This document shows positions 36,096 to 41,389 of a stretch of DNA of 64,000 nt, in pieces. Origin of the DNA: Halostella salina. GTDB lineage: Archaea > Halobacteriota > Halobacteria > Halobacteriales > Natronoarchaeaceae. Each line of letters starts with the position of its first letter. The first letter of the stretch is position 1. Position numbers and translations under genes: made by a program. The notes under the pieces are model-generated. The model ran no database searches. It saw only the letters and a list, made by a program, of their open reading frames with translations, and had not been told where the DNA came from. The stretch spans positions 1-64,000 of the forward strand of contig NZ_RCIH01000011.1 of the NCBI RefSeq assembly GCF_003675855.1. The letters are read 5' to 3'.

Positions 36096-37154
36096 TTACA
36101 GCCCGAGCGCCTGCACGAGCGTCAGCCCGCTCGCCATCGCGCCGAGGAGGTAGCCGCCGATCGCGCCGCCGTTGAGCAGCGGCAGGCCGGCGTGGGCGCG
36201 ACCTTTCAGCACCATCGTCATCAGCGCGAGCAGGCCGATGGTCGTCCCGACCATCGCCGACAGCGCCGCGAGGTTGAGCGCGATCCCGGGCACCGCGATG
36301 GCCCCGGCGTCGACGAAGAAGGCGGCGCTGGCGACGATGATCGTCGGCATCACGGCGTCGCCGAGGCCGATGAACAGCGCGTCGCGCTCCATCGGTCCCT
36401 CGTCGGTGACGGCGGGTTCCTCGTCACCGTCGTCGGTCGTCGAGTCGTCGGCGGCCTCGCTGGGGTCGCCGTCAGCCGGTTCGCCGCCGTTCGGCGCGGC
36501 GTCGGCCGCGTCGTCACCCCCCTCGGCGCGCTCCTGCGCGTCGAGGAAGGAGTACGGCAGCGTCGTCGGGATCACGAACATGATGGGGACGTTCAGGTCC
36601 ATCACGCCCTCCGCCAGCGTCAGCATGTGCTCGGTGCCGTAGACGCTGATCGCGTCGTAGACGGCCAGCGCCGACAGGAGCACGATGGCGGGGAGGATGC
36701 CGAAGCTGATCCCGAAGATGCCCGCCGCGCCAGCGCCCATGATGATCCCGGCCGTGTCGATGACGTACCACTCCGGGTGGACGAGCAGGCCGGCGACGAT
36801 GGCCAGCGCGCCGGCCGCGGCGAGGACGTTGACGGCGACGCCGCCCGCCGGAACGGTGACCACCGGCGGCACGACGACGTTCAGCACGTACCACGACAGC
36901 AGGCCGCTGGTGAAGATTATCAGCCCGCGGATGAACCACCGGACGTCGAACTTGATCGCCCCCAGCATCACCACGGTCGCGACGAGGATCGCCCCGAGGT
37001 AGGCGAAGCTGTTGGTCGTGTCGCCGGGGTCCTCGGTCGCCTGGTAGCCGGCCGACTGGAACGGTTCGACCAGCGCGAGCGCGCCGACCTGTACGAGGAG
37101 GAAGATGCCGACGGTCGCGGCGACCGCGGCGTACGCGCGATGTCGCTGTTCCAT
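36096..37154 (-). CDS. Presenilin/signal-peptide-peptidase-like (A22) intramembrane protease
   Basis: 352 aa with about nine membrane helices. The two catalytic aspartates of GxGD proteases are visible: ALAVYDAISVYG (YD motif) and FIGLGDAVMP (GLGD motif). The C-terminal PAL motif is degenerate (LPLLNGG). A large acidic Asp/Glu-rich loop of about 60 residues lies between the two. Such enzymes cleave transmembrane segments, perhaps of signal peptides or regulators. It follows gar1 on the same strand, 96 bp apart. Confidence 0.9.
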   Translation of the reverse strand: MEQRHRAYAAVAATVGIFLLVQVGALALVEPFQSAGYQATEDPGDTTNSFAYLGAILVATVVMLGAIKFDVRWFIRGLIIFTSGLLSWYVLNVVVPPVVTVPAGGVAVNVLAAAGALAIVAGLLVHPEWYVIDTAGIIMGAGAAGIFGISFGILPAIVLLSALAVYDAISVYGTEHMLTLAEGVMDLNVPIMFVIPTTLPYSFLDAQERAEGGDDAADAAPNGGEPADGDPSEAADDSTTDDGDEEPAVTDEGPMERDALFIGLGDAVMPTIIVASAAFFVDAGAIAVPGIALNLAALSAMVGTTIGLLALMTMVLKGRAHAGLPLLNGGAIGGYLLGAMASGLTLVQALGL

Positions 37155-37250: not shown

Positions 37251-37481
37251 CTACCGCGCGTACAGCTTCTCGCCGAGCATGAGCGCCAGCCGCCGGTCGT
37301 CGTCCGGGGAGACGGCGACGTACGGCCGGGAGACCGGGCCGAACACGTCCACGACGCGGCCGACCCTGTCGAGGGACTCGTCGACCGCCTCGGTGCCGAT
37401 ATCGGGCGTCTCGTCGTCCGGGACCCGCAGGATAAGGAGGCCCTGTGCCGTCCGGACGACTTCGCCGAGGCGCTCCATCAC
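37251..37481 (-). CDS. gar1: H/ACA RNA-protein complex component Gar1
   Basis: 76 aa single beta-barrel. [14 protein letters not shown], the [20 protein letters not shown] core and the end MLGEKLYAR match archaeal Gar1, which binds Cbf5 and guides pseudouridylation by H/ACA RNAs. The start overlaps the srp19 stop by 4 bp (ATGA), so both are made from one transcript. The second Met at residue 2 is an alternative start. Confidence 0.92.
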
Positions 37482-37759
37482 TCCCGGAGGGCGGCGACGT
37501 ACGCGGCGACCGCCTGAACGATGTCGTTTTTCGCGTCGTCGTCGGCGTTCTTGATGAGGATCCGGCCGCGTTCCTCGTACCCCTCGCGGGGGTACGCAAC
37601 GTCGCGCTCGATCACGGCGTCGTAGCCGACCTGTCCGGCGGCCTCGGCTATCTCGTCGACCGTCGGCTCGGGGACGGCCACGTCCGCCGGGACCCGGCGG
37701 CCCTCGTTGCGGCTCAGGTCCGCGTCGAGATACGCGGGCCAGATGACGTTTTCGACCAT
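37478..37759 (-). CDS. srp19: Signal recognition particle 19 kDa protein
   Basis: 93 aa. [21 protein letters not shown] is the conserved opening of SRP19, followed by [22 protein letters not shown] and GRILIKN. It binds the SRP RNA and lets SRP54 assemble, for co-translational protein targeting. The start at 37759 matches the family; an upstream ATG at 37789 adds 10 residues. It is followed by gar1 with a 4-bp overlap. The btuF gene ends 39 bp upstream on the same strand. Confidence 0.95.
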
Positions 37760-37798
37760 ACTCCCCGGTCGTTCCGCCCCGGTTAACAACCTTTCCAG

Positions 37799-38983
37799 TC
37801 AGCGACGGGCCAGCAGGGCGAGCGTCGCTACCAGTGCGGCGACGGCGGCCCCGATGCCCATGCCGGGCTGGCCGCCGCTGTCCGAGCTTTCGGTGGTGTC
37901 GTCGCCGTCGCCGCCGGAGTCGCTATCCGACTCGCCGTCCGACCCGCCGTCGGCGGCCGTCGTGCCGGACTCCATCCCGGCGTCGCCGCGGACGCTCGCG
38001 TTCGCCTCGGCGTACGCCTCGGGGTGGATCGACTGCGCGACCTGACTGATCGGGATCACGACGCGCGGTCCCGGCTGGTTGAGGTAGTTGGCGTTCACCT
38101 CGATGATCTGGTCTTCCTGCACCGCGGTCGTCTCGGACAGCGCCTCGGTCCCCTGGAGTCCGTACTGCTCCTGAACGAGTATCCACTCGGGGTCCTGCGC
38201 GACGATGATCTCGTTCGAGAGCTGGTCGTAGCCGGTGACGTTGGCCCCGACGGCGATGTTCTCGCCGCCGCCGAGTTCGATGATGCGGTTGATGAACGTC
38301 CCCTCGCCAGCGGTGAAGCCGCCGGTCATCTGGTAGTACACCGTGCCGCGCTCCTCGCCGCTGACGGCCGCCTGCACGACTTCGATGTCGGTCCGCATCT
38401 CGCTCACCGCCTCGGCCGCGCCCTCGCAGTTACCGGTGAGGCGACCGGTGGTGTTGGTCTTCTCGTAGATGTCCTCGATCGACTCCGCCATGCGGAACTC
38501 GTACACCGGCATCCCGACCTCGCGGAGCTGGCTGATCGTCGAGTCGCGCGTGCTGTTGGGCGCGAGGACGAGGTCCGCCTGCGTGGCGACGGTCGTCTCG
38601 ATGCTGACGGAGACGCCGTCGTCCTGGCTGATGTCGGTCTTGCCCTCGCGGCCCTCGAGGTAGTCGGTGTACTGGCTGATCGGCAGGCCGGTCACCTGCC
38701 CCTGTGCGCCGATCTCCCACATCGTCTGGGCGGCGCTGGGCTGGAGCGTCACGACCGACTCGGGCCGTTCCTCCAGCGTGATCTCGTGTCCCTTCGCGTC
38801 GGTCAGCGTGACTGGGAACGAACAGTCCTCCTGTGCGGCCGCGGCACCGTCGACGCTCGCGGGCGCGTCGGTCCCCGTCGGCGCGGCAACCGCCGCGCCG
38901 GCGGCCGCCGGCGTGGCGAGGGCGACGACGCTTGCCGCGACGACTAGCAGTGCGACCATCGATCGAACTCCGTCTCGTGCCAT
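37799..38983 (-). CDS. btuF: Periplasmic-type cobalamin-binding protein of ABC importer, with C-terminal sorting tail
   Basis: 394 aa. A Sec-type signal peptide covers about residues 1-30. The class III substrate-binding core has the [19 protein letters not shown] start and [11 protein letters not shown] near its end. The C-terminus is an Asp/Ser/Gly-rich stretch, then [19 protein letters not shown] and RR. This is a PGF-CTERM-like tail for archaeosortase processing, with Met replacing the usual Phe. It delivers vitamin B12 (or a related corrinoid) to BtuC. It is divergent from btuC and shares one promoter region with it. Confidence 0.88.
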
Positions 38984-39010
38984 CGTGCAACCCTTCCCGA
39001 CGGAGTCAAT

Positions 39011-39018
39011 AAATATTT
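39011..39018. promoter_or_regulatory. Symmetric TATA box shared by btuF and btuC
   Basis: AAATATTT is a perfect palindrome. Its centre is 31 bp from the first base of btuF (38983) and 30 bp from the first base of btuC (39045). Both genes would be transcribed leaderless from one TATA element in opposite directions. The total intergenic gap is only 61 bp. This is inferred from spacing and symmetry. Confidence 0.6.
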
Positions 39019-39044
39019 ACCTAACCCAACTCAGATTGTGCAGT

Positions 39045-40151
39045 ATGCGAACCGGCGCTCGGACGGCCGTCTGGACCGCCGCCCTCACCGCGCTACTCGG
39101 GGTTGTCGTGGTGGTGAGCGCCGCTATCGGGCCGGTGCCGCTCGACCACGTCGTCGTGGCGAAGGCGGCGGCGAATGCGATAGCCGTGCCCGCCTCGCTC
39201 GGCGTGACAGTCTCGTGGGCCGCCCTCCCCGTCCTGCCGGTGTCGGTCCCGGTGCCGGGACTCGACGTGAGCTACGTCCACCCGTTCTCGTTCGCGGTGC
39301 CCGAGACGTCCCAGCGGATCGTCGGCCAGTTGCGGCTGCCGCGGATCGCCCTCGGCGCGGTCGTCGGCTTCGCGCTCGGCGCGGCCGGCACGGTGATGCA
39401 GGGCTTCTTCCGGAACCCGATGGCCGACCCGTCGATCATCGGCGTCTCCTCGGGCGCGGCCGTCGGCGCGGTCGCCGCCATCGCCGTGCCCGGCGTTCTC
39501 CCCGTCGGTCCCCGCACCGCGGCGTTCTCCGGCGCGCTGGCGACCGCCTTCCTCGTGTACGCCATCGCCACCGAGGGCGGGCGCACGCCGGTGGCGACGC
39601 TGCTGCTCGCCGGCGTCGCGGTCCAGACGTTCCTCGGCGCGGTCATCTCCTACCTGCTCGTCATGAGCGGCGAACAGCTCCGCGAGGCGGTGTACTGGCT
39701 GATGGGCAACCTGCGCGCGTCGACGTGGGGCGAGGTCGAGTTCGCCCTGCCCGTCGCCCTGCTCGGCTTCCTCGTCCTGCTCGCCTTCGCGCGGGACCTC
39801 AACGTCCTCCTGCTCGGGGAGACCGACGCCACCCACCTCGGCGTCGAGGTCGAGCGCACGAAGCGCCTGCTGCTCGCGCTGGCGAGCGTCGTCACCGCCG
39901 CGTCGGTCGCCGTCGCCGGCGTCGTCGGCTTCGTCGGGCTCATCGTCCCCCACATGATGCGGCTGGTCGTCGGCCCGGACCACCGCATCCTGCTCCCGAC
40001 GAGCGCGCTCGCCGGGGCGTCCTTCCTCGTCGCCACCGACACCCTCGCCCGCTCCGGCCCGGCCGAGGTGCCGGTCGGCATCGTCACCGCGGCGCTGGGC
40101 GCGCCCTTCTTCCTCTTCCTGCTCCGCCGCCGGGAGGTGACCGCGTTGTGA
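39045..40151 (+). CDS. btuC: Cobalamin ABC importer permease
   Basis: 368 aa with about ten helices of the FecCD/BtuC family. Diagnostic segments are [20 protein letters not shown], the [16 protein letters not shown] motif, [18 protein letters not shown] (coupling helix) and [16 protein letters not shown]. It forms the membrane channel for B12 with BtuD. The ATG at 39045 follows the shared TATA by the right distance. Its stop overlaps the btuD start (GTGA). Confidence 0.93.
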
Positions 40152-41389
40152 TCGAGGTCGATGGGGTCGCCGTCTCGCTCGGCGGGGCGGAGGTCCTCTC
40201 CGGCGTCGACGCGACCGTCGACCGCGGCTCCTTCGTCGGGCTCGTCGGGCCGAACGGCGCGGGCAAGACCACGCTCCTCCGGACGATGAGCGGCGCGCTC
40301 GCCCCCGACGCGGGCGAGGTCCGGATCGGCGGCGACGCTGTCGGCGACCTCCCGTCGAAGGCCGCCAGCCGCCGGGTCGCGGTCGTTCCGCAGGAAACCC
40401 ACCTCGCCTTCGACTTCGACGTGGAGACCGTCGTGGGGATGGGCCGCCATCCCCACCGATCGCGGTTCGGCGGCCCCTCGGAACGCGACCGCGAGGCCGT
40501 CGCCGACGCGATGGAGCGGGCCGGCGTCGCCCGCTTCGCGGACCGGTCGGTCGGCGCGGTCAGCGGCGGCGAGCGCCAGCGCGTCCTGCTGGCCCGCGCG
40601 CTCGCTCAGGACGCGCCGGCGCTCCTGCTCGACGAACCGACCGCCAGCCTCGACGTGAACCACCAGGTGGAGACCCTGGAACTGGTCGCGGACCTGGTCG
40701 CGGACGGGAAGACCGCCGTCGCCGCCATCCACGACCTCGACCTCGCGGCGCGCTACTGCGACGAACTCGTCATGCTGTCGGACGGCGGCGTCCTCGCGGC
40801 CGGCCCGCCGGCCGAGGTCGTCTCCGAGGCGAACCTCGCCGACGCGTTCGACGCGAACGCCGTCGTCTCGCGGGACGGCGCGACGGGGAGCCTCTCCGTT
40901 ACTGCGCTCCCTGACCGCCCCAGCACCGACGCGACGGTCCACGTCGTCGGCGGCGGCGAGGCCGGCGCGCGCGCCGTGGACGCGCTCGGTGCGGCGGGGT
41001 TCGACCGGACCGTCGGGCCGCTCCCCGAGGGCGACGCCGCCGCCGAGACCGCCCGGTCGCAGGGCGTCGACGTGGTGACGACGCCGCCACACGCCCCCGT
41101 CGACGACGGAACGGTCGAGACGGTCCGCGACCGCGTCGCGGCGGCGGACGTGACGGTGCTCGCGGACCTGGTGGTGACGTCCGGGAACCGTGCGGTCCTC
41201 GACGCCGTCGCCGACGCCGACCGCCTCGTGGTCGTGGAGACCCGGCCGTTCGAGGAACGGAATCGCGCGGCCGGCAGCGCGCGCGACCGCTATGAGCGCC
41301 TGCGGCGACGCGCGACGGTCGTCGCCGACGACGTGGCCGCCGCTGCCCGGGAGCTACGCGGGACGGTGCCCGCCGAACTGGCGGACTAA
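40148..41389 (+). CDS. btuD: Cobalamin ABC importer ATPase with C-terminal extension
   Basis: 413 aa from a GTG that overlaps the btuC stop by 4 bp. Residues 1-250 are a standard ABC ATPase: Walker [11 protein letters not shown]-loop VVPQETHL, signature SGGERQR, Walker [14 protein letters not shown]-loop AIHDLDL. The last 150 residues form a separate Rossmann-like domain ([18 protein letters not shown], then [13 protein letters not shown]). This extra domain is also known from the Halobacterium BtuD and may sense a ligand or regulate uptake. Confidence 0.93.

Follow-up and report, generated by a model that had tools for sequence, protein, structure and literature searches.

The 64-kb stretch of Halostella salina DNA analysed here (the window) contains a 61-bp divergent intergenic region (38984–39044, assigned to neither strand) between a btuF-like gene on the minus strand (37799–38983) and btuC on the plus strand (39045–40151); its limits are set by the btuF start codon at 38981–38983 (minus strand) and the btuC start codon at 39045 (plus strand). 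The btuC product (P0002) is a vitamin B12 ABC permease (PF01032, NF007081) that is above the cut-off for the NCBIfam BtuC model (589 bits vs 461). The btuF-like product (P0001; PF01497, TIGR04281) is above the cut-off for TIGR04281, the PGF-CTERM-anchored ABC substrate-binding model (412.8 vs 325), and under the cut-off for the BtuF model (71 vs 234). A btuD-like ATPase gene follows btuC (40145–41389, plus strand, start codon approximate), and its best NCBIfam model is NF007082, "corrinoid ABC transporter ATPase" (479 bits, under the cut-off of 537). We note that this ATPase has a long C-terminal extension past its ABC domain (ABC_tran covers residues 18–167 of 414), and that the minus strand beyond btuF encodes SRP19 (37478–37786) and then the presenilin-family protease PSH (36096–37151). 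An Rfam scan of 38500–39600 gave no cobalamin riboswitch match at E values up to 1, and a riboswitch reading of the gap was rejected for that reason. CobN (PF02514) and CbtB (PF09489) were not found by search of the H. salina genome, and given this the organism may depend on corrinoid salvage via btuFCD.

The palindromic TATA element and its distance to both start codons

The gap holds the core AAATATTT at 39011–39018 within a longer perfect palindrome, TAAATATTTA (39010–39019, neither strand; consensus YAARTAYTTR), which is centred at 39014.5 and is proposed as a TBP site shared by both directions. Measured from this centre to the A of the ATG, the distance is 31.5 nt for btuF and 30.5 nt for btuC; TATTTA and TAAATA overlap inside the palindrome, and the 20 bp at 39004–39023 have a G+C content of 20%, vs 70% for the window. 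AAATATTT occurs once in the window and has a count of zero in 100 dinucleotide shuffles. These observations bear out the earlier note in its description of one palindromic TATA box in the 61-bp gap, about 30 and 31 bp from the two starts. The box has company among the conserved features of the gap, which also contains a conserved CTA triplet and a second conserved site, op2 (see below). The TATA element is bordered by conserved but unlike sequences, CAA at one end and CTA at the other, and neither is the CGAAA motif quoted for haloarchaea.

BtuC was searched for in 195 genomes of the same order and matched in 183, and the btuC upstream region was compared in 150 of these 183. A conserved block, with the consensus CAAYAARTAYTTRNCTAMNSMAA followed by NYNNRNTTK, is present in 149 of the 150 regions, and in the sole exception (L150) the retrieved sequence ended 3 bp before a perfect copy at G085:C96:70553. 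A separate observation concerns genome G001 (78% complete), which has a btuC match without a block copy and is also without a match to DUF7839, a domain discussed below. The symmetric sequence YAARTAYTTR is met in 137 of the 149 gaps, whereas no more than 71 of them have an 8-bp core that is exactly palindromic (AAGTATTT, found in 51, is the second commonest form), so that the idea of a self-complementary box serving both genes keeps its symmetry of consensus but not its exactness. Median distances from the palindrome centre to the start codon are 29.5 nt for btuC and 30.5 nt for btuF, and of the 144 gaps that could be measured, those in which both starts were found by rule (btuF starts by open frame and a preference for ATG), 120 have both start codons 27–34 nt from the centre. 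The start codons are 62 bp apart in the window and mostly 59–62 bp apart across the gaps. Comparison with other haloarchaeal btuF-btuC gaps, which the earlier note had proposed as a check, thus comes out in its favour, and in these alignments one near-palindromic, putative TATA element about 30 nt from each divergent start is kept in most genomes compared.

The sequence supports a reading of the gap as a predicted shared two-way promoter that is leaderless or nearly so in both directions. Leaderless transcripts, defined as those with leaders of 0–5 nt, make up 72% of protein-coding transcripts in Haloferax volcanii (PMC4983044). In Pyrococcus furiosus the TATA-to-start distance is about 25 nt, and at shared-TATA promoters the two transcripts begin about 50 bp from each other (49 bp in the case that was tested there; PMC6640164). 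Since the btuF and btuC start codons are 62 bp apart, a start spacing like that of Pyrococcus would predict leaders of about 6 nt, not zero, and "nearly leaderless" is therefore the safe wording.

Haloarchaeal TATA boxes lie about 25–27 nt from the transcript start, and at that distance strictly leaderless starts 62 bp apart want box centres on either side of the palindrome centre; with TATTTA and TAAATA overlapping in the palindrome, the element could be two separately oriented boxes a few bases apart, one for each gene. We consider this unlikely, as the symmetric consensus in 137 of 149 gaps fits one symmetric site, and the bases at positions 4 and 13 complement each other in 111 gaps vs 82 from shuffling (raw counts over related genomes), with no excess at positions 7 and 10 (79 vs 86). 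Only a few bases distinguish the one-box from the two-box model, and sequence does not allow a choice between them. The claim that a shared box would fix btuF and btuC expression at 1:1 is not supported, because a TBP-TFB complex can point in only one direction at any moment and the flanking sequences are unlike (CAA vs CTA). Bacterial two-way promoters are likewise described, in PMC12825309, as working in one direction at a time.

The conserved block as a tandem of half-site pairs

The conserved block is about 32 bp long and is made up of two 12-bp half-site pairs at a 20-bp spacing, none of its parts being assigned to a strand. The first pair, op1 (39007–39018), is a CAA-N6-TTT pair fused with the TATA element, and its CAA is present in 92 of 92 dereplicated gaps. 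The second, op2 (39027–39038), has the sequence CAACTCAGATTG, an imperfect dyad MAANYNNRNTTK (CAA-NYNNRN-TTG) spaced 20 bp from op1 and separated by 6 nt from the start codon of btuC, and the triplet CTA (39021–39023) is a spacer between the two that is conserved in 143 of 149 gaps. Among the same 149 gaps, MAANYNNRNTTK is found at op2 in 135, with its inner AA/TT complementary in 98–99%, CAAN6TTK is found at op1 in 123, and the two pairs occur together at 20 bp in 118; both pairs, even with MAA allowed, are absent from all 73,819 positions in the flanks of these sequences. The block scoring matrix was trained on these same gaps, and plain counts were for that reason relied on instead. Invariant block columns carry 1.6–2.5 bits of information and columns outside the block mostly 0.0–0.3 bits (a few weak columns at its borders reach 0.9), so the block is not accounted for by relatedness alone. 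As far as the compared sequences go, then, the exact palindrome is not what has been conserved; the larger tandem element is the conserved unit.

Relative to the strict tandem, the window site (39007–39038) has two mismatches, both in the TATA-fused op1, where the inner Y and R are A and T. When up to three mismatches are allowed the window has four matches (two unrelated), a number that 4 of 100 shuffles of it also reach; the tandem pattern alone would not be exceptional in the window, and its apparent standing comes from conservation. The CAA...TTT of op1, built as it is on the TATA element, could be promoter sequence alone. Across the H. salina genome the 23-bp block has one copy at up to three mismatches (a looser pattern counts two), the strict tandem is absent in a genome-wide pattern search, and a 17-bp pattern at up to three mismatches gives 29 matches vs 62 for the control, which is no excess. 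The dyad GCAA-NYNNRN-TTGCA alone is not enriched in 21 genomes (81 vs 91 control matches). With no strict tandem, no further listed block and neither CobN nor CbtB in its own genome, the evidence for a regulon comes from relatives only.

Tandem sites at cobalamin genes of related haloarchaea

The 20-bp tandem without TATA fusion is found in 116 of the 195 genomes, vs 5 for the reversed control, and as a spacing control a 21-bp tandem is found in 17 genomes, vs 16 for its reversed control. In these relatives the tandem precedes genes for B12 synthesis, cobalt uptake and B12-using enzymes, among them cbtB, cbiX, cobN, mcmA2 and eutB. Fifty tandem sites were examined, 30 at loci picked automatically and 20 hand-picked for variety. 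Forty-four of them (27 of 30 automatic, 17 of 20 hand-picked) have one of 14 tested genes within 200 nt downstream, or 42 when two at class I-type ribonucleotide reductase are left out, a count to be read as a description and not as an unbiased rate, since the gene list was drawn up after viewing the same loci, 20 of the 27 automatic sites are mcmA2 in related genomes, and the 20 hand-picked sites were chosen for variety; six of the 50 sites are near none of the 14. Gene names rest on Pfam and NCBIfam matches of one representative each, and cbiX, cobA, cbiE and one of two cobT fall below the NCBIfam cut-offs.

Two candidate B12-dependent reductases were rejected at these sites, the L335 protein because it passes the class I NrdE/NrdA model and not NrdJ, and that of L351 because it is an anaerobic, B12-independent NrdD. 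The L351 tandem (2505–2536) lies 32 nt before this NrdD-type reductase and would fit B12 repression of an isozyme; a further tandem, at L354 (2483–2514), precedes by 33 nt the gene of an NMT1-like ABC substrate-binding protein (PF13379), which may belong to a different uptake system.

The cobalt transporter subunit gene cbtB is present in 62 of 195 genomes, and upstream of it the tandem adjoins a separate TATA-like stretch; the best spacing is 20 bp at 26 of 30 cbtB loci (21 of these without mismatch) and 21 bp at the other four, ties being assigned to 20. Control matches are common when the block is searched at up to three mismatches, and only named copies with 0–3 mismatches are used here. 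Six genomes of genus g27 (L215–L220) have a second block copy, with 0–1 mismatch, between a second btuF-like gene and a divergent cobB-cobA-cbiP group (cobB and cbiP confirmed by NCBIfam/Pfam in one genome, the other genes named by eye). Further copies lie before a cbiE-like gene at L280 and before cobT in G101 (two mismatches); G190, whose copy at btuC has three mismatches, carries one some 0.8 kb ahead of a cobA-like gene.

The recurrence of the tandem bears on a simpler account of the gap, in which a palindromic TATA box and its BREs are kept for core-promoter reasons and the remainder is spacing for two leaderless genes. The symmetric start-codon geometry fits such a plain shared promoter, and shared-TATA promoters with a BRE-TATA-BRE motif are documented in P. 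furiosus (PMC6640164). But conservation extends beyond the TATA element to CTA, CAA and TTG, op2 has a dyad of its own, and the tandem recurs without TATA fusion, at the same 20-bp spacing, at cbtB, cbiX, cobN, mcmA2 and eutB. The TATA element alone was rejected as the cause of the conservation, given that the block exceeds the box and the tandem recurs without it, and we regard the plain-promoter account as unlikely. Our preferred reading, which we hold to be probable on these comparative grounds, is that the gap is a B12-regulon operator fused with a bidirectional TATA box, and that both genes are regulated together.

The position of the operator differs among the genes that it precedes. Its edge lies 48–50 nt from the start codon at mcmA2, 50 and 54 nt at eutB and 52 nt at pduC, as against 6–23 nt at cbiX, 10 nt at cobN and 0–3 nt (by eye) at cbtB; the corresponding values for btuC and btuF are 6 and 23 nt. 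The supply gene cbiT (30–31 nt) and the DUF7839 gene (78–88 nt) fit neither position class. Six mcmA2 promoters (L307, L314, L315, L317, L319, L322) share the stretch TTTCCGTWA between operator and gene, which may lead into the mcmA2 TATA box. In archaea, sites upstream of the promoter suit activation and sites over the TATA element and start suit repression, and we infer by this analogy that the two classes agree with how B12-using enzymes and B12 supply genes, respectively, would be expected to respond.

On the operator-fusion reading, TBP would bind the btuF-btuC palindrome in either orientation, TFB would fix the direction, and leaderless or nearly leaderless mRNAs would be made from both genes. 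A dimeric winged-helix regulator would occupy both op1 and op2 from one side of the helix, their 20-bp spacing being about two turns. When corrinoid is plentiful this protein would cover the TATA element and the btuC start region and so shut both directions at once; when corrinoid is scarce it would leave, and both genes would be made. At mcmA2, eutB and pduC, with the operator about 50 nt from the start and upstream of the expected BRE and TATA box, it would probably activate.

The candidate regulator and comparison with known systems

Genes with DUF7839 homology are found in 193 of 195 genomes (157 of the 157 good ones), with a single match in all but 16. Five of the 50 tandem sites are flanked by cbiT on one side and on the other by a divergent gene for a winged-helix protein that carries DUF7839 at its C terminus (L331, L337, L339, L344, L349), and a tandem with at most one mismatch is present upstream of the cbi-type DUF7839 gene at 33 of 55 loci (L356–L410, some genomes twice). 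At the 11 loci of the other DUF7839 form (L411–L413, L415–L419, L421–L423) none has an upstream tandem closer than four mismatches. In G013 and G028 no more than about 2.4 kb separates the DUF7839 gene from btuC, and in G004 the gene lies between cbtB and cbiT (cbiT by eye). H. salina has its own DUF7839 gene at G000:C5:182704–183480 (L411:5205–5987), whose product matches DUF7839 at 128.9 bits and MarR_2 at 34.8 bits (both cut-offs 27); this protein is 47% identical to the cbi-type, and its gene has no tandem upstream and no B12 gene nearby by eye. G023 and G070 have tandem sites, yet only the 46–47% form of the DUF7839 protein.

In the predicted structure of the DUF7839 protein the winged helix resembles that of MarR proteins, and the CggR DNA-binding domain aligns with it at Z 13.2 (rmsd 2.0 over 88 residues). 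The last domain of the protein, modelled alone with the first 66 residues below pLDDT 50, gives siroheme synthase, SUMT and CbiL at Z 9.3–10.5 (93–103 residues, rmsd 2.7–5.1), and non-tetrapyrrole methyltransferases come next in the same list at Z of about 9; the 50 rows of this VIA-align list are tetrapyrrole methylases and other methyltransferases (among them diphthine synthase, RsmI and borosin enzymes). Foldseek with this effector domain alone gave no match below 0.001, and a sequence search of the PDB gave five weak matches, four of which are regulators. The shared methylase fold does not show ligand binding.

From its genomic linkage we take the DUF7839 winged-helix protein, with moderate confidence, to be the most likely regulator of the operator. 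It is a real possibility, on the other hand, that the regulator is another factor, such as RosR, a metal-responsive DtxR-type protein or a TFB paralogue, and that DUF7839 is tied to cbi clusters for some different reason: the H. salina DUF7839 gene has no visible B12 neighbour, and in Halobacterium salinarum RosR is reported to affect cobalamin synthesis genes under peroxide (PMC3443676). Against this are the near-universal presence of the DUF7839 gene, which in some genomes adjoins cbiT, btuC or cbtB, the tandem upstream of many cbi-type copies, and the tetrapyrrole-methylase-like domain of the protein. We therefore keep DUF7839 as the candidate and put forward, tentatively, a fuller scheme in which haloarchaea would sense corrinoids by a DUF7839 winged-helix protein with a ligand domain derived from a tetrapyrrole methylase; it would bind tandem CAA-N6-TTG sites, and would repress supply genes and activate B12-using enzymes according to site position. 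At btuF-btuC its operator would be merged with the palindromic TATA element, so that one complex closes both directions.

Archaeal control of B12 uptake and synthesis is, to our knowledge, poorly understood, and some haloarchaea, possibly H. salina among them, depend on salvage. An operator with position classes and a named candidate regulator makes the question testable in genetically tractable haloarchaea, and the btuF-btuC gap, if read correctly, would be a case in which core promoter element and operator are one sequence for two genes, a simple joint switch for a transporter.

Bacterial cobalamin riboswitches also put B12 supply genes under B12 control, but do so with an RNA element. Nearer to the present case is the CBL-box, which Rodionov et al. 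2003 reportedly predicted in some archaea as the signal of a hypothetical B12 regulator; it too is said to be a predicted transcription-factor site before archaeal B12 genes, and the likeness drawn here is one of description and not of sequence. The CBL-box may be a related signal, and the regulon is therefore not claimed as wholly new; a literature search of partial coverage found no paper describing the present operator. For the promoter itself, Warman et al. 2021 are said to have described bidirectional promoters of bacteria and archaea in which DNA symmetry gives divergent transcription, and we know of no fused ligand-responsive operator from that work. The closest parallel is the shared-TATA promoters of P. 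furiosus, which have a near-symmetric TATA between divergent starts, BREs on either side and a direction set by TFB (PMC6640164). The work on them deals mainly with antisense transcription at head-to-tail genes, from transcript starts about 50 bp apart, whereas at btuF-btuC the two genes are functionally linked, their start codons are mostly 59–62 bp apart, and the box is conserved across an order and has an operator-like fusion.
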